The notes beneath the pieces are model-generated. The model was given only the letters and a program-made list of their open reading frames with translations. It was not told the DNA's origin and did not search any database. Shown here in pieces: positions 15,963 to 50,561 of a DNA stretch of 51,790 nucleotides. The translations under genes and the position numbers were made by a program. Source of the DNA: Stentor roeselii (lineage: Eukaryota > Ciliophora > Heterotrichea > Heterotrichida > Stentoridae). The stretch covers positions 1 through 51,790 of the forward strand of contig RSEH01000303.1 in the NCBI GenBank assembly GCA_006503475.1, in the 5' to 3' direction. How positions within the stretch are numbered: position 1 is the stretch's first letter; each line of letters starts with the position of its first letter.

Positions 15963-18647
15963 ATGGGAAACTCTGAAAGTCACGAATCAACCTCAAACCA
16001 TCTCCAGCTTCCATCAAATTTCCAGCCACGTCACAACAGTTTAAAAGCCTTCGCATCAACCGAAATTCCAAGTTCAATTCCCATCACAATAAAAAAATCC
16101 AAAAAGCCTCGAGTAAAACACAACTCACGTAACATATCAACGGACCTAAACATCGATCTTGACGCTCCAACAGCGAAACTCCAATCAAAAAGCAAAACCC
16201 AAGAAGACCGAAGCCTTTTACGAACAGCTTTAAAACGACACTTCATTCTAAGTGGCCTTCCCGATGAAAACATAGACAAAGTAGCAGAAGAAATGAAACT
16301 TTTTTGCTTAAAATCAAAAGAAGTCGTTTTTTATCAGGGAAACCCAGGGTATAAATTTTTCATAGTCTCAAAAGGAACCCTTGAGATCCTCGTGAATGAC
16401 GAGGTCAAAGGACACCTGACAACAGGCCAGGGCTTCGGCGAGCGTGCTTTAATTCACGACATGCGCCGAAGCGCAACTATTCGAACAGTCACAAAAGTTG
16501 AACTTTGGGGAATCACTCGGCAGGTCTTCAGAGATACTTTAAAAGTACTAAATTCTTTACATTTTGAAGAAAACAAGAAATTTTTAAAAACTGTTCCTTT
16601 TTTGCAGGTCTTGACTGAAACTCAGATTAATTCTTTGTCTTCTGTTGTTGTCTGTCAAAGTTTCAGTCATGGCCAGCAAATTGTAGTTGAAGGCGACACG
16701 GGTGGGTCTTTTTTTATTATTAAGGAAGGATGTGTTGAATGTTCTGTGAAAGGTTCAGTTATCCGTTGCTTGTCTAAAGGCGAGTTCTTCGGAGAGCAGG
16801 CTTTGTTATACAAAACTAACAGAACTGCAACTATCACTGCAGTTAACAAAGTAGTTGTGTTAAGCCTCGGTCCTGACCTGTTAAAAAGCACTGTCGGTGA
16901 ACGTCTTCAGACCTTTTTATATAAAAATACTCTTAGAATCGCTTTTGACTCTTCCAAGTTCCTTGCTGAACTTCCAAGAGAAGACAAGGAAAAAATCATT
17001 GAAAAAGTAGAAATTTTTTTATTTACTAAAGGCGAAGTTGCAGTTCCCAAAGGTGTCGTGAAAGGAAGGTACTTGTGGATTGTTTTAAAAGGGTCAATCT
17101 CAGCAGGGACTAAACAAATCTCCAAGTTTCAAGACCTCGGCGCTAAGTGGATCTGGTCGAAATCTCAGGGAGAAGTCAAAGAAAACTTCATTGCTGATGA
17201 AAACACTGACCTAGGAATCATCAGAGCTGACTTAATTCACTCAATCATTTCAGGACCTCTTGCTGAAGTCGTTAAAATCACGAAAATCTTCTCAATACTG
17301 AAAAATGTTCACATTTTTCGAATGCTCAGTAGTTCTAAACTTCGATCTCTCAGTCAAAAAGTGACAGAAAAAGAGTTTAAACAAGGTGAAGGAATTTTTA
17401 ACCAGGGAGAGAACGGTGAAGGTTTTTACATCATCAAGGAAGGAGAAGTTGATATTATTAAAGATGAAAAAGTAATTCGCACAGTCTTCGCGAATAACTA
17501 CTTCGGAGAACGATCGATTATTTTAAATGAAACTCGCACAGCAACTGCTAAGTCGAGAACTGATTCAGTTCTTTGGATGCTCAGCAGAGAGGACTTCTTA
17601 TCCATCGTCGATGAGAACATTTTAGCCTTGTTGGTAAAAAGAATCCAGCTACAAGATGACACCATCGGAATGGAAGACTTGTACATCGTTGACCAGCTGG
17701 GAAAAGGAACATTTGGAAGTGTTTACCTTTGTGTTAAACAACAGAATAAAGTCCTTTACGCTTTGAAGTCAATCTCTAGAAAAAAAATCGATGCTTATAA
17801 TTTGCATGAAAGTCTTCAACAAGAAAAAAAAGTACTTTCAAGAGTCGAACATCAGTTCATTGTAAAGTTCGTTAAAACCTTCAAAGACCAGAAAAGACTT
17901 TTTTTTCTTTTAGAGTTCATTCAAGGGATGAACTTACTCGAAGTACTTCGAGTTCTTAACATCCTTAATGGCTCACGAGCAAAGTTCTATGCCAGTTGCT
18001 TGCTACTGATTCTAGAGCAACTTCATGAAAATTTCATCATTTTTCGAGATTTGAAACCGGAAAATGTCATGGTGGAAGATGATGGGTATTTGAAATTACT
18101 TGACTTTGGAACTGCTAAAATCATTGAAAGTAGGACTTTCACGGTTATTGGAACTCCACATTATATGGCTCCTGAAGTTATCATGGGCAAAGGGTACTCA
18201 TTCGCTGCTGACTTGTGGAGCTTGGGAGTCGTTATTTTTGAGATGGTCAGTGGAACTGTTCCTTTTGGAGATAACTTTCAGGATAATCCTTTCGCTGTTT
18301 ATAGAGAAATTATTAATGGAAAGTATGAATTTCCACATTTTGTTCATGATTCTTGCAAAGGGATTGTTGAGGATCTGCTTAAACCTTTTGGAGAAATGAG
18401 GGGAAATGTTGAAGGGTTTAAAAGACATCCTTGGTTTGAAGGAGTCTCTTGGGATGACTTGCTTAGTCGAAAAAAATCTCCTCCTTATAAACCACGTTGT
18501 GATGACTTGACTAAAGTTATTGATGTCGCTATTGAACAAGGAAGGACTGTTGAGGCGTTTTTGAATCGAAATACTGAAAATAGTGGGTTGATTCAATTCT
18601 TCGGAGAAAAAAAAGCTTTTGATAAAAATTGGGATCGAGATTTTTAA
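15963..18647 (+). CDS. cGMP-dependent protein kinase (PKG), four cyclic-nucleotide domains
   Basis: This 894-residue protein starts MGNSES, an N-myristoylation motif that would anchor it to membranes. Cyclic-nucleotide-binding domains follow. Phosphate-binding cassettes are seen at about 158-172 (FGERAL..RRSAT), 277-290 (FGEQAL..RTAT) and 514-528 (FGERSI..RTAT). A third domain (about 325-430) keeps the fold but has lost the cassette. Ser/Thr after the cassette Arg, where PKA has Ala, favours cGMP. The AGC kinase has the glycine loop GKGTFGSV (580-587), Lys602, FRDLKPEN (694-701), DFG (714-716) and a T-loop Thr at about 727. Four domains with the third degenerate is the known apicomplexan PKG layout, so this looks like an alveolate PKG. 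It probably transduces cGMP signals to motility or secretion. The leader is A/C-rich. Confidence 0.95.
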   Translation: MGNSESHESTSNHLQLPSNFQPRHNSLKAFASTEIPSSIPITIKKSKKPRVKHNSRNISTDLNIDLDAPTAKLQSKSKTQEDRSLLRTALKRHFILSGLPDENIDKVAEEMKLFCLKSKEVVFYQGNPGYKFFIVSKGTLEILVNDEVKGHLTTGQGFGERALIHDMRRSATIRTVTKVELWGITRQVFRDTLKVLNSLHFEENKKFLKTVPFLQVLTETQINSLSSVVVCQSFSHGQQIVVEGDTGGSFFIIKEGCVECSVKGSVIRCLSKGEFFGEQALLYKTNRTATITAVNKVVVLSLGPDLLKSTVGERLQTFLYKNTLRIAFDSSKFLAELPREDKEKIIEKVEIFLFTKGEVAVPKGVVKGRYLWIVLKGSISAGTKQISKFQDLGAKWIWSKSQGEVKENFIADENTDLGIIRADLIHSIISGPLAEVVKITKIFSILKNVHIFRMLSSSKLRSLSQKVTEKEFKQGEGIFNQGENGEGFYIIKEGEVDIIKDEKVIRTVFANNYFGERSIILNETRTATAKSRTDSVLWMLSREDFLSIVDENILALLVKRIQLQDDTIGMEDLYIVDQLGKGTFGSVYLCVKQQNKVLYALKSISRKKIDAYNLHESLQQEKKVLSRVEHQFIVKFVKTFKDQKRLFFLLEFIQGMNLLEVLRVLNILNGSRAKFYASCLLLILEQLHENFIIFRDLKPENVMVEDDGYLKLLDFGTAKIIESRTFTVIGTPHYMAPEVIMGKGYSFAADLWSLGVVIFEMVSGTVPFGDNFQDNPFAVYREIINGKYEFPHFVHDSCKGIVEDLLKPFGEMRGNVEGFKRHPWFEGVSWDDLLSRKKSPPYKPRCDDLTKVIDVAIEQGRTVEAFLNRNTENSGLIQFFGEKKAFDKNWDRDF

Positions 18648-19649: not shown

Positions 19650-22600
19650 ATGGAAGACACTGTAAATACCTCCCACTTAAGCGAGTTCGAATACAGCGAT
19701 TCTGCACTTCCCTTGCTGAGCTTCAACACGACAGAGAAAATTTACGAGCTTTCACTCAGCGCTTTGGCGATGCTTCGAAGTGTCAGTGGTCGGGTCAGTG
19801 TGGTGACTGTCGCTGGCCTTTATAGAACAGGAAAGTCTTACCTGTTGAACCAGGTCCTTCTCGGCAGGAAAAGCGGTTTTGGAGTAGGTCCTTCAATCAA
19901 CCCCTGCACGAAAGGAATGTGGATCTGGGGTCGACCTTTACAGTCCCGGACCAGCAAAGGCGAGCCCTGTAGTTTACTTTTAATAGACACTGAAGGCATC
20001 GGCGCACTTGATGAGGACTCGACGCATGATTCTAGGATCTTTTCTTTGGCAGTTCTTTTTTCATCTTGCTTTGTTTATAACTCAGTTGGGTCTATTGATG
20101 AGTCAGCTCTTTCAAGCATGTCACTTGTGTTGAACTTGGCAAAGCATATCACGGTGAAATCAGATAAAGTCTCTGGGGATAACCTTGCTGATTATTTTCC
20201 GAGTTTCTTGTGGGTCATTCGTGACTTCGCACTTCAACTTGTTGATGAAAATGGAAAAGCACTTACTTCTAAAGAGTACCTGGAAAGAGCTCTTATGCCT
20301 CAAAAGGGCTTTTCTGAGATCAGTGAAGAAAAGAATAGAATCAGGACACTGATCAAGACTTATTTTCGTGATCGAGAATGCTTTACACTTGTCAGGCCCA
20401 CTACGAATGAATCAGAACTCCAGAGTCTTGACCAGAAAGACCTGAACACGCTTCGTCCTGAGTTTATCAGCCAAGCGCGAGAATTGAAATCGCTTATTTT
20501 CAGCAGGCTTAAGCCTAAAGAAATCAATGGAAAAGAACTCACGGGCGAAATGTTTGCGGACCTTGTTGAAAGCTACATCAATGCCATTAATACCGGAGCT
20601 GCTCCTTGCATTGAAAATACTTGGACTTATCTTTGCAAGAATCAAATGGCGAAGGTCTTGAGTCATTGTGAAGAACTTTTTGATAAAAAAGTCGCGGATG
20701 TACTTGAGAATGAATTTCCTTTACCGCATAAAGAATTGAAAAATGTTTTGAAAAATATTAAAAATGAGACTTTTAAAGTTTTTAAAAATTCAGCTGTTGG
20801 AGAAGAGGCGGAGGAAATTATGGAAAAGTTGAAGGAAAGGATTCAGGAAAAGATTGATGCTATTGTTTTGAATAATGAAGATGGATGCAAAATTATTAGT
20901 TCTAGGTTCTTGCAGGAGAACTTTTCGGGGATTTCTCAGAAACTTAAAAAAGGAGTTTTTAAAACTTTTCAGGAGTTTGAGAAAGAATTGAAAATATTGA
21001 AAGATTATGCGAAAGGGCACTGCCCAGTAATGGACTCACAATATCTAGCAGAATTTCTCTGTGAATGCACTTCAAACGCGGGTGACTTTTTCATCAAAAA
21101 CCTATCAAACGAGATCCTTCTTCAAAAAGATGTTCTGAAAGAAACCATCTCGCGACTTCAGTCAGAATTCAAAGAATCAAAAGACATTCTTCAAAAAGAA
21201 CGAGAAGACCTCAGAGGCAAGGTCTCTTCTCTAGAAAACGAAAAAATGGAGCTTTTCCTCCGTGAAAAAAGCACTTCTGAGAAACTAGAAGAGCTAAAAA
21301 CCGACAAAGAAACCCTGGAAAGAGAAAACAGAAACCAAATCCGCAGTCTAAAACAAGACCTAAACGAAAAACTCGAAGAAGCCACTAAAAGATGCTGGGA
21401 ATACGAAGAAAAAATCAAAGAACTCGAAAGAAAAATCTTCCAAACCCAAAGCGACTCAGCCCAAGAACTCGCCTTGCTTCAGCAAAAAAGCTCCTACCTC
21501 GAAAAAGCCCTCGGAGAGGTCGAGACTCGTGAACAAAAGGCAATTCAAGAGTTGAAGACCTACAAGCAAAACCACAATTCTCTTATAAAAGAATTCTGCT
21601 CAAAACAAGAAGACCAACTTTCAGTTTACCAGTCGCGACTTTTAGAAGAAGCTGAAAAATTCAATGACTTAGAAAAAACGCTTTGTGAAAAAGAAGTCGA
21701 ACTTGAACAAATGAAAATAAAGTTTGAGGAAAATGAAACAAGACTTGAAAATCTTGCTGATGAGTTGAAGGAAAATGAAGAGTTTAATAAGGCTAGACTT
21801 GAGCAAAGGGAAAAGTTCTTCAAGCAGGAATGGGAAAGGTCTATTGAAAAATATGAAAATGATCTACAACATCTTAAAAATTCACTGCAAGTCGCTGAGG
21901 ATAAAGTCAAAGGTTTTGAAGGTGCTAAGATGGTTAAAACTGCTGAAAGTTCTAAAGAAACAGCGATTTTAGAACAAAAAATAGAGTTTTTAGAACAGGA
22001 ACTCAAAGATACCAAAAAGTCTCTTGAGGAAGAAAAGAAACATCAGCAACACCTTCTGGCATCTATGAGCAGTCTTTCAGTTGAAAACACGAAAGACGAG
22101 TTTTCATTGGAAATCAAGAAAATGCAGGAAACTCATGACAAGGAGATCAGAGTTAAAGAAGAAATTTGGAATGTTCAGAAAACTGAACTTTTACAGGAGG
22201 TCAACTTTTTGAGAGAGTCTTTGGAAGAACTGGAAATTCAAGTGAAAGTCGCACAAACACATAAAACTGAAAAGGAAAAAGAAATGGCTGATGAAATTGA
22301 GGTTATGAAAAGTGAAAAAAATAGACTGCTGGAAAAAATTAAGTCACTTAATTTTGAGTACTCAGCTTTTGTTGAGGAAACTGAAAATAAGGCTAAGGTT
22401 AAATCTAAGGAATTGGAAGAAAGGTCTGAACAGCTTATTAGTTATTATACAAGGGAAAACTCTGAGATCAAGATGAAACATGAGGAAGTTATAATGCAAT
22501 TGAAAAAGTATTGTGAAGAGGACAAGTCCAGAATGGAAGCTCGAGTAAAAGAAGAACGAGAAAGATCAGAAAAAAAATACTCCCTAATGTGTGAAGACTT

Positions 22601-24557
22601 CGAGCGTCGTATCCAAGAAGAGCAAGACCACTACGAATGTGAAATTTCCAATCTTCAGCAAGAACTTCGCGACCTTCACGAGCGTTCTTCACAAGAGCTT
22701 CAAGTTCTTCGTCACAAGTCTGACTTCGACAGTCAAAAGATCGAAACCCTTGAAAAGTACTTAAATTCAACAAAAGACCAAATATCAAGTATTCAATCAT
22801 CTCAAGCCCAAGCCCTTGAAGCTCATCTTCAAGCTTTCAACAACGAAAGATCAACTCTTCTCGACAAAATCGAGCGACTCGCTTCAGACCTTGCCAGCAA
22901 AGAAAGAGAAAACGCGAATTTCACTTTTCGCATCGAGCAGGCCCAGGCAAGAGCGGCTTTAAAAGAAAAAGAACTGGAAGAGCTGAAAGAACAGTACAAC
23001 CGCGAACGAGGACTTTTCATTGAAAGACTCGAGTCAGCGAAACAAGCGAATCACAAACTAGCCGACGAGATAAGTCAGAAAAAAAGTGACTATAAACGAG
23101 AAATTGCCCTGGCTAACCAACATATCGAATTTCAATGTAAAAAAATCGCTGATTTAGAGAAAGCTATTCAGGAAAATAGCTCAAAATACTCAGATTCTTT
23201 TAAAATGTGGAGAAATGAATCAGGACTTGAATTCACTGAAACTATTGAAAAACTCAACTCGGATAAAGAAACTGCGGAGAAGAAGTTGGAGGATTATAAA
23301 AGGAAAAATAAGGAAAATGAAATCAAGTTTTCTAAACAAATCGCTTGTTTGGAGAAGGAAAAAACTTTACTTGTTGAAAAAGTTTCGCAGATGGAGAATA
23401 AAAAAAGTGATAGTGAAAAAAGGTTGCAGGAAGAACTTAAGGATTTGAAGTCTCAGATCATGTGCAGTAAAGAATTTGATACTATGGGAAGATCGGTTTA
23501 TTTAATTGAAAATGAAAAGTTGAAGAGTAAAAATAATGAGTTGGAAAAGAACTTGGCTGAAGTTAATTCTTTTATTGAAAGGGATAAAGTACTTTGGGAA
23601 AATAAATTTGCTTTTTTAGTTCAGCAGAGGGATCAGGCGAGGAATGATCTGGTTGAGTCTCAGCAGAAGTTTGATCTTGCTCTTGAAAGACTTCAGAAAA
23701 GGGGAAGTCTTGATCGTGATAAGGTCGGAACTGCCACTGCTTCACTTATATCGTCGGTTGAAGCAAGGTACTCTGCCCAGATTAAGGAAATTCATGAAAA
23801 ATATACTACTACTATCAGTGAATTAACGCAGAAAAATAAGTCTCTTGAACGTGAACTGCGAAACACTAAAGAAGAATACGAAATCGAAAGAAGAACTCGA
23901 AGTTCCGATTCAGGTTCCCAAGGCCGTAAACTCCAAGACCTTCTAAACAACGAAAAAAGGCTCCAGTCCGAACTCGAAGATCTGAAATCCGGAAAAGAAT
24001 CAAAAATCAGAGAAATAATGGAAATGTTCAAAGGTGAAAAAGAAAACTTTAAACTAAAACTCCAGGATTCCGAGCAGAAAATAAAAGAACTGGAACATAA
24101 CAAAAGTCAACTTTTCCTCGAACATGAGAAAGAAAGAGCGAAATGGGCTCTTGAACGTGATCATCTTATTTCTCAGAAGAACGAAGCACAGGATATTGTT
24201 GATAGTCTGGAAAAAAGAAAAGACACTTTGTTGAAGGAAAATGAAAAACTTAAAGCAACTAGAGGCAGAGTCTCTTCATCGAAAATTGACAGCCTTGCAA
24301 GTGTTAACAAGTCTTACATGTCAAATCTTTACAGCACTAATATTTCTTTTGATGAAGTCACTAAAGAAGTCAAACCTGCTTGCACGTCACCTGGAAATGT
24401 TTCTAATGATTTTTCTCCGTTGCCGCTTAGGTTGAAGAACTATGGAGGTTTGCTTAAGAAGAAAATTGAGGATAAGGGATTTGAAGGGTTTTATCAAAAT
24501 CTTGGTGAAATTGTTAGGAAACCGAAGAGAAACTTGGATGAGAATTCGAGGGGTTAA
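19650..24557 (+). CDS. GBP/atlastin-type large GTPase with very long coiled coil
   Basis: This 1635-residue protein begins with a guanylate-binding-protein GTPase domain (about 20-310). The P-loop is GLYRTGKSYLLN (56-67), the switch-I Thr is in NPCTKGMW (about 84-91), DTEG is at 113-116, and the guanine-specifying RD motif is in WVIRDFALQL. A helical GBP-like segment follows (about 330-490). The remaining ~1050 residues are almost continuous Glu/Lys/Gln-rich coiled coil, ending in a short basic tail. Typical GBPs are ~600 residues, so the coiled coil roughly triples the length. No transmembrane anchor is seen, unlike atlastins. GBP-family GTPases dimerise on membranes or filaments; here a role in tethering or cytoskeleton organisation is inferred. 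Within the gene, codon choice alternates between C/A-ending and T/G-ending blocks. Confidence 0.92.
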   Translation: MEDTVNTSHLSEFEYSDSALPLLSFNTTEKIYELSLSALAMLRSVSGRVSVVTVAGLYRTGKSYLLNQVLLGRKSGFGVGPSINPCTKGMWIWGRPLQSRTSKGEPCSLLLIDTEGIGALDEDSTHDSRIFSLAVLFSSCFVYNSVGSIDESALSSMSLVLNLAKHITVKSDKVSGDNLADYFPSFLWVIRDFALQLVDENGKALTSKEYLERALMPQKGFSEISEEKNRIRTLIKTYFRDRECFTLVRPTTNESELQSLDQKDLNTLRPEFISQARELKSLIFSRLKPKEINGKELTGEMFADLVESYINAINTGAAPCIENTWTYLCKNQMAKVLSHCEELFDKKVADVLENEFPLPHKELKNVLKNIKNETFKVFKNSAVGEEAEEIMEKLKERIQEKIDAIVLNNEDGCKIISSRFLQENFSGISQKLKKGVFKTFQEFEKELKILKDYAKGHCPVMDSQYLAEFLCECTSNAGDFFIKNLSNEILLQKDVLKETISRLQSEFKESKDILQKEREDLRGKVSSLENEKMELFLREKSTSEKLEELKTDKETLERENRNQIRSLKQDLNEKLEEATKRCWEYEEKIKELERKIFQTQSDSAQELALLQQKSSYLEKALGEVETREQKAIQELKTYKQNHNSLIKEFCSKQEDQLSVYQSRLLEEAEKFNDLEKTLCEKEVELEQMKIKFEENETRLENLADELKENEEFNKARLEQREKFFKQEWERSIEKYENDLQHLKNSLQVAEDKVKGFEGAKMVKTAESSKETAILEQKIEFLEQELKDTKKSLEEEKKHQQHLLASMSSLSVENTKDEFSLEIKKMQETHDKEIRVKEEIWNVQKTELLQEVNFLRESLEELEIQVKVAQTHKTEKEKEMADEIEVMKSEKNRLLEKIKSLNFEYSAFVEETENKAKVKSKELEERSEQLISYYTRENSEIKMKHEEVIMQLKKYCEEDKSRMEARVKEERERSEKKYSLMCEDFERRIQEEQDHYECEISNLQQELRDLHERSSQELQVLRHKSDFDSQKIETLEKYLNSTKDQISSIQSSQAQALEAHLQAFNNERSTLLDKIERLASDLASKERENANFTFRIEQAQARAALKEKELEELKEQYNRERGLFIERLESAKQANHKLADEISQKKSDYKREIALANQHIEFQCKKIADLEKAIQENSSKYSDSFKMWRNESGLEFTETIEKLNSDKETAEKKLEDYKRKNKENEIKFSKQIACLEKEKTLLVEKVSQMENKKSDSEKRLQEELKDLKSQIMCSKEFDTMGRSVYLIENEKLKSKNNELEKNLAEVNSFIERDKVLWENKFAFLVQQRDQARNDLVESQQKFDLALERLQKRGSLDRDKVGTATASLISSVEARYSAQIKEIHEKYTTTISELTQKNKSLERELRNTKEEYEIERRTRSSDSGSQGRKLQDLLNNEKRLQSELEDLKSGKESKIREIMEMFKGEKENFKLKLQDSEQKIKELEHNKSQLFLEHEKERAKWALERDHLISQKNEAQDIVDSLEKRKDTLLKENEKLKATRGRVSSSKIDSLASVNKSYMSNLYSTNISFDEVTKEVKPACTSPGNVSNDFSPLPLRLKNYGGLLKKKIEDKGFEGFYQNLGEIVRKPKRNLDENSRG

Positions 24558-27269: not shown

Positions 27270-28292
27270 ATGGAGAAAAAGTCAGCTTTTCTGCTTCTCA
27301 TCCCTCTGCTTCTAGTGGCCTATATTCTCTCAGAATCATCCACATCCTCCTCATTCCTTTCAACGATCGACCTAGACATGGCCGATTTCAACAAATTCCT
27401 TCAAACCTACAACAAGCACTATTCCCATTCAGAAAAAAAATACCGTCTTTCCATATTCAAGTCAAACTTAAAGTTAATCCACGAGATAAATTCTCAGTCT
27501 CTCGACTTCAAACTGGCCATAAACAAATTCGCAGACCTGACGCAAGAAGAATTTTCTCAACTCCAATCAACTCCAAAGAAAACCAACATGAGTGCCGAGT
27601 CCAGGTCAAGAAGAATAAACGAAAATCAAAACTTAAAAGCAGCTCCAAGTTCTTTTGACTGGAGAGACAAAGGTGCAGTGAGTGACGTCATCGACCAAGG
27701 GAACTGCATGTCTTCTTGGGCGATCTCAGCTGTTGGAGCTGTTGAAGGCGCCCTGGTCGCTCAAGGGCTGGTCTCGTTAATCGACCTGTCAGTGCAAGAA
27801 GTGCTTGACTGTGCAAATGGAGCTTCGGACCATGGCTGTTCAGGAGGTTTAATTGACGACGCTTTTCTTTTCGTTCAAAATTATGGACTGACCACTGACT
27901 TGATCTATCCTTACATCGCTGCGAACCAGACGTGTAAACAGAACTCGGTAAAGCAAAACGTGACGATTATTCATAGCTTTTATGAAGTACCCTCGAATGA
28001 CTCACCTTCTCTTATCAACCAGGTCGCGATGACTCCTGTTGTCTCGCAAGTGGATGCGGATAATTATGTCTGGCAGTTTTATTACTCTGGAGTTATTAAT
28101 AAGTTCTGTGGAACTGACTCGAAACATTATGTTCTGATTGTTGGGTATAATCAGGATGCTAGTCCACCTTATTATATTGTCAAAAACTCGTGGGGACAAC
28201 AGTGGGGCGAAAGTGGATATGCTAGGATTGGGATTTATGGAGGAGCTGGAATTTGTGGAATTCAGCAGGTGTGCTCGTATCCTTCTTATTAG
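27270..28292 (+). CDS. Papain-family (C1A) protein with Ser in place of catalytic Cys
   Basis: This 340-residue preproprotein has a signal peptide (about 1-21, KSAFLLLIPLLLVAYILS). An I29-type inhibitor prodomain follows (about 34-92: FNKFLQTYNKHYSHSEKKYR, then NKFADLTQEEF). The mature domain starts near SSFDWRDKGAV. It keeps the oxyanion Gln143, the disulfide Cys146, GCSGG, the catalytic His286 (KHYVLIVGYN) and Asn306 (VKNSWGQQWG). The catalytic position reads NCMSSWAIS where papain reads QCGSCWAFS: Cys25 is Ser149 (TCT, 27714-27716), and the preceding Gly is Met. Either a serine-type variant or an inactive homologue is possible; parallels are Plasmodium SERA, silicatein and testin. It probably acts in a lysosome or food vacuole, or outside the cell. 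It converges with the coiled-coil gene, 13 nt between stops. Confidence 0.95.
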   Translation: MEKKSAFLLLIPLLLVAYILSESSTSSSFLSTIDLDMADFNKFLQTYNKHYSHSEKKYRLSIFKSNLKLIHEINSQSLDFKLAINKFADLTQEEFSQLQSTPKKTNMSAESRSRRINENQNLKAAPSSFDWRDKGAVSDVIDQGNCMSSWAISAVGAVEGALVAQGLVSLIDLSVQEVLDCANGASDHGCSGGLIDDAFLFVQNYGLTTDLIYPYIAANQTCKQNSVKQNVTIIHSFYEVPSNDSPSLINQVAMTPVVSQVDADNYVWQFYYSGVINKFCGTDSKHYVLIVGYNQDASPPYYIVKNSWGQQWGESGYARIGIYGGAGICGIQQVCSYPSY

Positions 28293-47846: not shown

Positions 47847-48845
47847 ATGTTTTCTCAAACACCTTACAATAAAATGGTAGAAAAAAAGGTTTTTGTGATT
47901 TTTCTTCTGCAAGCGTTCTCTGTGAATGCATTAGTGAATTACACAGTCTCAGGTATGAGCTCAGGGGGGTATATGGCAGGCCAAATGCACGTCAGTCACT
48001 CTTCATCAATTCAAGGCGTTGGCATCGTGGTTGCAGGCCCCTACTACTGCTCCCAAGGCTCAGTGACAAGGGCAAACACAATATGCACTTACAATGATAC
48101 AGTGTTGGACGTAGCGCCAATGATCGCCTACGCGACCTTAATGTCATCTAAAAATCAAATCGATCCAGTCTCATTCCTATCCACATCAACAGTATACATC
48201 TTTTCAGGTTTAAGAGACGAGTTGATGATTCCACAAATCGTCGAAGGCACATACAACTTTTACAAGGCATTTGTCCCATTGAATCAAATAACATTTGTCG
48301 AAGAAATTCCAATCAACCATGCCTGGCCAACTAAAAATTCAGGAAATCCCTGTTGGTACTACGGTCAATTCTTCGTAAACAGCTGTGGTTATGATGGTGC
48401 TGGGATAATTTTAACTACTTTACTTGGACCTTTGTATCAAGATGGTCAAAGTAATTCAAGCAATTTGTTTTCCTTTCCTCAGACAAAATATGTTAATGTG
48501 AATCAAGCGGCTCTTGATGTGAATGGATGGATTTATGTTCCGACTTCTTGTCAAAAAAACCCCGGGAACTGCAGATTGCATGTCAATATTCATGGATGTG
48601 GACAGGAATTTCAGAGGGATGGGTTAAATTATATTAATAACATCGGCATGAATATTTGGGCTGAAGGGAATAATATTGTTATTATTTATCCTCAGACTGT
48701 CATGACTGCTGCTAATCAAGGAGGGTGCTGGGATATTGATGGGTATACTGGACCTAATTTTGCTTTGAAGTCGGGGATTCAGATACAAGCTATTCATGGA
48801 ATGGCACAGGATTATGTGAATATTGTTAGGAGTATATTTATGTAA
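47847..48845 (+). CDS. Secreted PHA depolymerase-like alpha/beta hydrolase, copy 1
   Basis: This 332-residue protein has a signal peptide; Met10 (47874) is the better start because it gives MVEKKVFVIFLLQAFSVNA directly. The fold and motifs match bacterial short-chain-length polyhydroxyalkanoate depolymerases. The lipase box GMSSG has nucleophile Ser38, Asp124 lies in FSGLRDELM and His158 in NHAWPT, and GPYYC and the late HVNIHGCGQ and YPQT motifs are also present. The enzyme would hydrolyse poly(3-hydroxybutyrate) or related polyesters, perhaps from ingested bacteria. A second copy lies ~750 nt downstream with the same layout. The family is mainly bacterial, so gene transfer is likely. Codon use looks like its neighbours. 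The 3' end forms the first unit of a tandem repeat. Confidence 0.92.
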   Translation: MFSQTPYNKMVEKKVFVIFLLQAFSVNALVNYTVSGMSSGGYMAGQMHVSHSSSIQGVGIVVAGPYYCSQGSVTRANTICTYNDTVLDVAPMIAYATLMSSKNQIDPVSFLSTSTVYIFSGLRDELMIPQIVEGTYNFYKAFVPLNQITFVEEIPINHAWPTKNSGNPCWYYGQFFVNSCGYDGAGIILTTLLGPLYQDGQSNSSNLFSFPQTKYVNVNQAALDVNGWIYVPTSCQKNPGNCRLHVNIHGCGQEFQRDGLNYINNIGMNIWAEGNNIVIIYPQTVMTAANQGGCWDIDGYTGPNFALKSGIQIQAIHGMAQDYVNIVRSIFM

Positions 48846-49595: not shown

Positions 49596-50561
49596 ATGAT
49601 TTTAGTAAGCTTTTTAATTACATCCTATCGAGTTGTAGCAGCAGTAAACTACACCGTCTCAGGTATGAGCTCAGGTGGCTATATGACTGGGCAACTTCAT
49701 GTTGCTCACTCAGCTTCGATAACAGCAGTCGGAATAGTAACAGCAGGACCTTATTACTGTGCTCAAGATTTTGGTTACGACAAAGGAAGTACAATTTGTG
49801 AAACGAACGACAAGCCTCTAGACGTGGCTGCATCAATTGCTTACGCGACTACACAGTCAGCAAAAGGTACCATAGACCCAGTCTCAAATCTGGCGAATTC
49901 AAAAGTTTACATCTTTTCTGGTTCTTATGACGAGCTGATGCTCCCTACTATACTCGAAGGAACTTACAACTTCTATAAAGCTTTTGTACCTCTGAATCAA
50001 ATCACTTTTGTAAGCGACGTTCCAGATAACCATGCCTGGCCGACTAAAGATGCTGGAAATCCTTGTTGGTTCTATGGGGCCGGTTTTGTTAATAACTGTG
50101 GATATGATGGGTCAGGGATTATTTTAACTACTCTACTAGGGCCGCTATACCAAGGAGGAACTTACAACAAAAGCAATCTTTTCACTTTTCCTCAGAACAA
50201 ATACGCTAATTTGAACTCGGCCTCGATGGGTACGAACGGATATATTTATGTGCCTTCTGGTTGTCAAAGCTCACCTGTCAGCTGCAGATTGCATGTAAAT
50301 ATTCATGGATGTTTGCAAAACTATGACTCTATCGGGTTGATGTTTATTGAAAGGATTGGAATGAATGGTTGGGCTGAAGAGAACAACATTATAACAATTT
50401 ATCCCCAAACTGCCAATTCTGCAGGGAATTTATTTGAAGGATGCTGGGACCTCTATGGATATACTGGAAGTAATTATTGCTTGAAGTCTGCTATACAGGT
50501 CAATGCTATTCATAGTATGGCACAGGATTATGTGAATATCGTGAGGAATATTTTTCAATAA
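49596..50561 (+). CDS. Secreted PHA depolymerase-like alpha/beta hydrolase, copy 2
   Basis: This 321-residue paralogue of the gene at 47847 is highly similar throughout. The short signal peptide is MILVSFLITSYRVVAA. The triad is Ser25 (GMSSG), Asp112 (GSYDELM) and His146 (NHAWPT). GPYYCAQ, GNPCWFYG, HVNIHGCLQ, TIYPQT and GCWDLYGY are also kept. As in copy 1, paired cysteines suggest disulfides, fitting a secreted or vacuolar enzyme. It should cleave short-chain polyhydroxyalkanoates or similar polyesters; the substrate is inferred from the family. The gene ends NIVRNIFQ and TAA and is not followed by the 45-bp repeat, so the repeat arose at copy 1 after duplication or was lost here. Confidence 0.92.
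   Translation: MILVSFLITSYRVVAAVNYTVSGMSSGGYMTGQLHVAHSASITAVGIVTAGPYYCAQDFGYDKGSTICETNDKPLDVAASIAYATTQSAKGTIDPVSNLANSKVYIFSGSYDELMLPTILEGTYNFYKAFVPLNQITFVSDVPDNHAWPTKDAGNPCWFYGAGFVNNCGYDGSGIILTTLLGPLYQGGTYNKSNLFTFPQNKYANLNSASMGTNGYIYVPSGCQSSPVSCRLHVNIHGCLQNYDSIGLMFIERIGMNGWAEENNIITIYPQTANSAGNLFEGCWDLYGYTGSNYCLKSAIQVNAIHSMAQDYVNIVRNIFQ

Follow-up and report, generated by a model that had tools for sequence, protein, structure and literature searches.

A putative catalytically dead cathepsin L with serine at the active-site cysteine, and its live and dead paralogues in a ciliate genome

A cathepsin-L-type zymogen lacking the catalytic cysteine

The stretch analysed here (the window) comprises bases 1-51790 of contig C234 (RSEH01000303.1; 51,790 nucleotides) in the 44.4 Mb Stentor roeselii assembly, which was also the genome searched for relatives. 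Its forward strand carries a gene (L001) for a papain-family protein, hereafter the window protein, of the cathepsin-L zymogen type, with an I29 prodomain followed by a Peptidase_C1 domain (Table 1). Two of the seven Pfam families listed for this protein exceeded their cut-offs: Peptidase_C1 (residues 126-338, E 1.1e-58, 199.4 bits against a cut-off of 20.7), which assigns it to the C1A papain family, and Inhibitor_I29 (residues 40-95, E 4.6e-18). The structure model predicts the papain fold in its zymogen form, and EKKYRLSIFKSNLKLIHEIN in the propeptide is the ERFNIN motif. The translated gene matched itself in its own genome at 100%.

The active site reads QGNCMSSW (27696-27719, codons CAA GGG AAC TGC ATG TCT TCT TGG). 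The equivalents of papain Gln19, His159 and Asn175, expected of an active C1A cysteine peptidase, are present as Gln143, His286 and Asn306, each in its expected column of a 26-row alignment of L-type paralogues; the fourth residue, the catalytic Cys25, is absent and Ser149 stands in its place. An earlier note on this DNA, made from the letters, had pointed to Ser149 at the nucleophile position and to Met147 replacing the preceding Gly. Both observations hold, and since all 17 aligned L-type rows with an intact site have Cys149 and Gly147, the two substitutions are real departures and not the product of a shifted alignment. The same note had listed the prodomain, Gln143, His286, Asn306 and the disulfide cysteines as retained, which Pfam and the alignment bear out, together with a signal peptide, which is probable by eye.

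Because the thiol is absent, papain-like cleavage by the window protein is not expected, and its sequence indicates that it is very probably not a peptidase. The gene probably encodes a catalytically dead cathepsin L (a pseudocathepsin) that is kept for what its folded cleft binds. The alternative function suggested in the earlier note, a pseudoenzyme with a binding role, is in this respect supported as far as sequence allows.

Table 1. Features of the pseudocathepsin gene and its product in the window
Feature	Position	Strand	Basis
Complete coding sequence of the putative pseudocathepsin, 340 amino acids, TAG stop, no internal stop	27270..28292	+	Open reading frame, Pfam, 100% self match in own genome
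Hydrophobic helix at the N-terminus (residues 3-23), probably a signal peptide or a membrane anchor	27276..27338	+	By eye; helix in structure model
I29 propeptide with ERFNIN motif (EKKYRLSIFKSNLKLIHEIN) and AINKFAD	27387..27554	+	Pfam, alignment
Mature papain-like domain, residues 125-340	27642..28289	+	Pfam, structure model and structural matches
Ile141 replacing Lys (papain position 17)	27690..27692	+	Paralogue alignment
Gln143, oxyanion-hole Gln retained	27696..27698	+	Sequence, paralogue alignment
Met147 replacing Gly23 of papain	27708..27710	+	Sequence, paralogue alignment
Ser149 (TCT) replacing catalytic Cys25 of papain	27714..27716	+	Sequence, paralogue alignment
Val175 replacing Glu (papain position 50)	27792..27794	+	Paralogue alignment
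His286, catalytic His position retained	28125..28127	+	Sequence, paralogue alignment
Asn306, catalytic Asn position retained	28185..28187	+	Sequence, paralogue alignment

Paralogues and the history of active-site loss

Relatives of the C1 family were found in the genome at 48 places by protein search and at 53 by the Pfam model. Among the 25 aligned L-type rows, the active-site column holds Cys in 17 (live rows) and another residue in eight (dead rows), namely Ser in L001 and L026, Gly in L002, L005, L014 and L017_2565, His in L004, and Ala in L016. A further gene, L023, stands outside these counts as its motif was trimmed off; it has Cys, so the 26 L-type genes divide into 18 with Cys and eight without. 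Gln, His and Asn are all retained in seven of the eight dead rows, and L026 has none of the three. Across all C1 types, 51 distinct active-site stretches could be read when identical stretches around the site were counted once and domains with an unread column were left out: 31 have Cys, 11 Ser, four Gly, three Ala, one His, and one Arg, that is, Cys25 is absent in 20 of 51. These counts are contingent on the alignments and the open frames used, and the assembly includes contig-end fragments (L023/L107, L043). Loss of the catalytic Cys is recurrent in this genome and is not tied to Ser.

The nearest paralogue, L002, is the sister of the window gene (49-50% identity, support 100/100) and has Gly at the site. 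Four of the dead genes, L001, L002, L004 and L005 (Ser, Gly, His and Gly, respectively), are compatible with one clade (p-AU 0.439, approximately unbiased test), and they have in common an Asn145 that occurs in no live row. A single origin of the seven dead L-type rows in a 24-row tree, from which L026 and L023 were omitted, was rejected (p-AU 0.00104). Active-site changes on the tree number six when L026 is included and five without L026 and L023, although the exact number of losses is soft because many inner branches are weakly supported.

The variety of residues at the site bears on the other function proposed in the earlier note, a serine-nucleophile hydrolase in which Ser149, His286 and Asn306 would form a working triad with an altered substrate range, as proposed for silicateins. 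The Ser-His-Asn set and the oxyanion Gln are present in the window protein; silicateins have Ser at this position, and its change to Ala is reported to abolish their catalysis (PMC4671257). Chymotrypsin-like activity is stated for a fragment of Plasmodium SERA5 (PMC3265493), and a rare active exception is possible because four natural C1-related Ser cases with reported activity, described as "extremely rare", have been listed (PMC9825947). However, the sister gene has Gly, the near relatives have His and Gly, and the remaining dead copies have Gly or Ala, apart from L026. Moreover, His is retained in only five of the 11 Ser-type stretches of the genome and replaced by Gln in the other six, so that Ser is a common replacement even where no triad is left. 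Ser within a papain-type triad is also disfavoured by the reported N-delta configuration of such triads, the N-epsilon one being nearly universal among serine triads (PMC9825947); in one study, SERA5 with Ser was non-proteolytic and parasites carrying a Ser-to-Ala change grew normally (PMC4671257). The Lys and Glu of papain positions 17 and 50 are also lost from the window protein. Given the Gly sister and the varied site residue, a serine-nucleophile enzyme was rejected as the leading explanation and is considered very unlikely. For the same reason, the Gly of the sister and the His and Gly of the near relatives, the window protein is not regarded as a member of a Ser-type subfamily of the kind found among SERA proteins.

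Other C1 genes of the assembly show further arrangements. Contig C206 carries a tandem array of three cathepsin L genes (L013, L017, L022) at 143495-146590; in the gene at 145667-146590, Gly replaces Cys and the branch measures 1.04, roughly four times the 0.25 of its sister. Two C1 domains in tandem occur in the proteins of about 558-605 residues encoded by L036 (446-2224 and 2292-4052), L038 (955-2628), L040/L105, and L042 (513-2327), which carry an insertion resembling the HIP motif of cathepsin Z. One Ala-type and one Cys-type C1 domain are found in L036 (2292-4052) and also in L040/L105, and L038 has Ser in both domains. In L031, L035, L039 and L104, Ser replaces Cys25 and Gln replaces His159 with Asn retained, a combination that may define one subfamily. 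Finally, L043 (contig C208, 1-2500) consists of contig-end C1 fragments with Ser or Arg at Cys25 and an in-frame TGA where relatives have Trp; it resembles the L036 genes by eye and is perhaps a decayed or allelic copy.

The window also encodes a 1635-residue protein (19650-24557) with the N- and C-terminal domains of guanylate-binding proteins followed by an apparent long coiled coil, and an 894-residue kinase (15963-18647) with three cyclic-nucleotide-binding stretches. Two similar tandem proteins (47847-48845 and 49596-50561) had no Pfam match at 0.001; by eye we take them to resemble polyhydroxybutyrate depolymerases, and gene transfer from bacteria is possible. No tiny introns of 15 or 16 bases turned up when ten stretches of the window were roughly scanned, so that introns lend no weight to a heterotrich source. 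The heterotrich Blepharisma uses a non-standard genetic code. Past the four TGA-ended open reading frames of the window, the next stop follows after one to four codons, and TGA ends only two of the 44 C1 frames with a readable stop. That TGG is the sole Trp codon counted carries no weight in this respect, since the open reading frames had been delimited at TGA. The standard code is reported for Stentor (PMC9505925), and TGA seems to be a stop in this genome, although the contig-end fragment of C208 with TGA where relatives have Trp speaks against it. Three repeats of the telomere-type sequence CCCTAACA match the assembly exactly at 547 places, most of which overlap, and the reversed pattern has no match; the plus-strand places among the matches listed lie inside the first 75 bases of contigs. 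The same repeat is reported as telomeric in Blepharisma (PMC9942806) and supports a heterotrich source, which would resemble Stentor in its code.

Constraint on the fold and other residues lost in the dead rows

Sixty columns of the L-type alignment are near-invariant, the same residue being found in 16 or all 17 live rows. The window protein retains 52 of them and departs at 141, 147, 149, 152, 175, 187, 201 and 251, whereas live rows left out singly retain 55 to 60 of 60 to 66 such columns. The sister L002, on another contig, also departs at 141, 147, 149 and 175. An ordinary active cathepsin with a sequencing or assembly error at 27714-27716 is therefore extremely unlikely, since a lone base-call error would not account for the altered columns 141, 147, 152 and 175, nor for those shared with the sister.

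Two of the departing columns are altered in most dead rows. Lys occupies position 141 (papain 17) in all 17 live rows and in one dead row of eight, and Glu occupies position 175 (papain 50) in all but one of the 17 live rows and in two of the eight dead ones; the corresponding Fisher values of 1.7e-5 and 0.001 take no account of kinship and do not serve as proof. The Cys-His pair of papain and caricain is tuned by Glu50. Lys17 of cruzain forms a bridge with Glu35 and lies with Glu50 in a groove that simulations are reported to couple to the catalytic Cys (PMC6347273).

In contrast to these positions, the residues of the fold are retained in the dead L-type rows, and the six structural cysteines are present in all 25. 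The earlier note's view that the fold is under constraint is supported by these residues and by the structure model. Compared with the sister gene, four-fold sites differ at 0.59 (71 sites) at an amino acid identity of 0.49, and in a rough neutral simulation with 0.3 substitutions per site none of 1000 copies remained free of stops (mean 10.3 stops, mean identity 0.52). The gene has thus lost a catalytic residue, kept the fold, and maintained an open frame over a long divergence, as expected of a pseudocathepsin. These observations weigh on the possibility that it is an ageing duplicate, a copy with little or no function left in which stops have yet to appear. The lost Cys and the eight altered near-invariant columns would agree with ageing, as would the long branches of several dead copies, but the live L021 and L025 have long branches likewise. 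A frame open at about half identity to a sister that is itself open, the simulated copies, the divergence at four-fold sites, and the complete set of structural cysteines all argue against it, and we consider it quite improbable.

The chief alternative to a binding cleft is that the gene is kept as a propeptide donor, in which case the I29 domain of a dead zymogen would inhibit live cathepsins in trans or help them fold, with the mature part as a carrier. The I29 score of the window protein ranks second of 25 genome places and its ERFNIN motif is complete; none of these 25 places is stand-alone, the open frames around them running to 319-428 residues. In addition, the ratio of I29 to mature-domain identity between L001 and L002 is 0.93, against 0.72 to 0.88 in five live pairs. 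Nevertheless, identity between these two genes is 0.50 in I29 and 0.54 in the mature domain, where a mere carrier should decay faster, and the other dead pair, L004 and L005, has a ratio of 0.73, inside the live range. Such a role is judged improbable.

Several points weigh against a pseudocathepsin kept for binding. A loss of the Cys only late on the branch would mean that the marks of selection go back to an active enzyme. Gln, His and Asn are kept in seven of eight dead L-type rows, as would be expected of a working triad; structural hydrogen bonding and limited time could explain their retention, an explanation offered without proof. An independent-pairs analysis of papain positions 17, 50 and 23 against Cys loss found only two independent pairs on well-supported branches, events are few, and positions 17 and 50 were chosen post hoc from the list of changed columns. 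The chymotrypsin-like activity of SERA5 mentioned above belongs here, as do reports that Cys-to-Ser changes had a limited effect on activity in SERA5 (where reports are called "conflicting"), congopain, an EnCL and silicateins (PMC9825947); the case of EnCL2 and congopain is also raised in PMC5840727.

Parallels in other organisms and possible role

Beyond this genome, only distant relatives were found in the scans of viral and genome contigs. Among viral contigs, the window protein gave one short match of 17 residues (L045), and the query A2 matched L098 at 41%, with the usual Cys. Among genome contigs, 52 bacterial or archaeal relatives had best-segment identities of 24-53%, the 53% extending over only 37 residues. 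The active-site column in 70 domain rows, including the window protein and broken and repeated domains, holds Cys in 50, a gap in 14, Ser in four (one being the window protein), Asp in one, and Thr in one. Some bacterial C1 homologues, L054 and L064 (from Burkholderiales metagenome-assembled genomes), L051 and L056, have Ser or Asp at Cys25 and Arg, Gln or Ala in place of the His.

The window protein has the fold, the ERFNIN prodomain, the structural cysteines, and the active-site Gln, His and Asn in common with C1A cathepsin L and papain zymogens (PF00112 and PF08246; propapain 3tnx, procathepsin L 1cs8), and differs from them in lacking the catalytic Cys and in the altered Gly23, Lys17 and Glu50 positions. 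Proteins of this kind are already known, as in SERA5, silicateins, and dead cathepsin B paralogues. The serine-type SERA proteins of Plasmodium, including SERA5, similarly combine Ser in place of the Cys with a His and an Asn, and the parallel drawn in the earlier note is apt to that extent. The window protein differs in being a small cathepsin-L-type zymogen with I29 whose sister gene has Gly. For SERA5 itself the parallel is less clear: one study found the Ser form inactive and the protein seemingly indispensable, and proposed a non-enzymatic role (PMC4671257), while activity is reported in others. Silicateins are papain-like with Ser at position 25 (PMC4671257, PMC9825947), and the window protein resembles them in combining this Ser with retained His and Asn, but it has no known link to silica; the engineered "cathsilicatein" (2vhs) is among its sequence matches, ranked below many cathepsins. 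In Eudiplozoon nipponicum, EnCL2 is a cathepsin L with Cys25 changed to Ser among paralogues with a normal triad, as here; in contrast to this genome, every other EnCL in the study has the usual triad, and the authors leave the activity of EnCL2 open (PMC5840727).

In Trichobilharzia regenti, the dead cathepsin B1 paralogues TrCB1.5 and TrCB1.6 likewise have the catalytic Cys replaced and the zymogen kept. For TrCB1.6, where Cys has become Gly, trimming in trans by live enzymes is reported; it binds chicken cystatin weakly, only a small fraction being bound, and does not bind human cystatins B and C (PMC7054455). Unlike the window protein, these are of cathepsin B type with Gly instead of Ser, in a parasite that faces host inhibitors.

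By what its sequence suggests, the pseudocathepsin would enter the secretory or lysosomal route, and its propeptide would be trimmed in trans by live paralogues, as the protein could not cut itself. The inert open cleft could then hold peptides or inhibitors. Four I42 (chagasin-type) and two cystatin places were found in the genome (L099, L100, L101, L102, L103). The N-terminus is hydrophobic by eye in the three I42 frames read and not so in the two cystatin frames; an I42 inhibitor and the pseudocathepsin could therefore share a compartment. As the leading, though tentative, role we suggest that of a decoy: the protein would buffer the cell's own chagasin-like inhibitors by taking them up, or would shield substrates, and would thereby tune digestive cathepsins. 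It is unlikely, though conceivable, that several losses have built a standing pool of dead cathepsins in this lineage that controls phagosomal digestion.

Parasites and sponges are known to have papain-like proteins in which Ser replaces Cys, and among the matches listed in open-licence literature (titles and beginnings of abstracts) there was no Ser-type or otherwise dead papain homologue of a ciliate. What may be new is how often C1 domains are dead within the genome of a single heterotrich-like ciliate, and a high share of them may be common among ciliates. A caution also follows for annotation, as Ser at Cys25 should not be taken as a new nucleophile without checking sister genes. If such a standing pool of dead cathepsins exists, chagasin-like and cystatin inhibitors would be soaked up by inert clefts, or peptides held there; proteolysis would be set by the balance of live and dead copies, and losing papain positions 17 and 50 together would mark in the sequence the conversion of a protease into a binding protein. 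If the counts hold, with many kinds of active-site loss (20 of 51 stretches) beside live paralogues, such a ciliate would be a good test bed for this conversion and for the question of whether Lys17 and Glu50 serve catalysis rather than folding.
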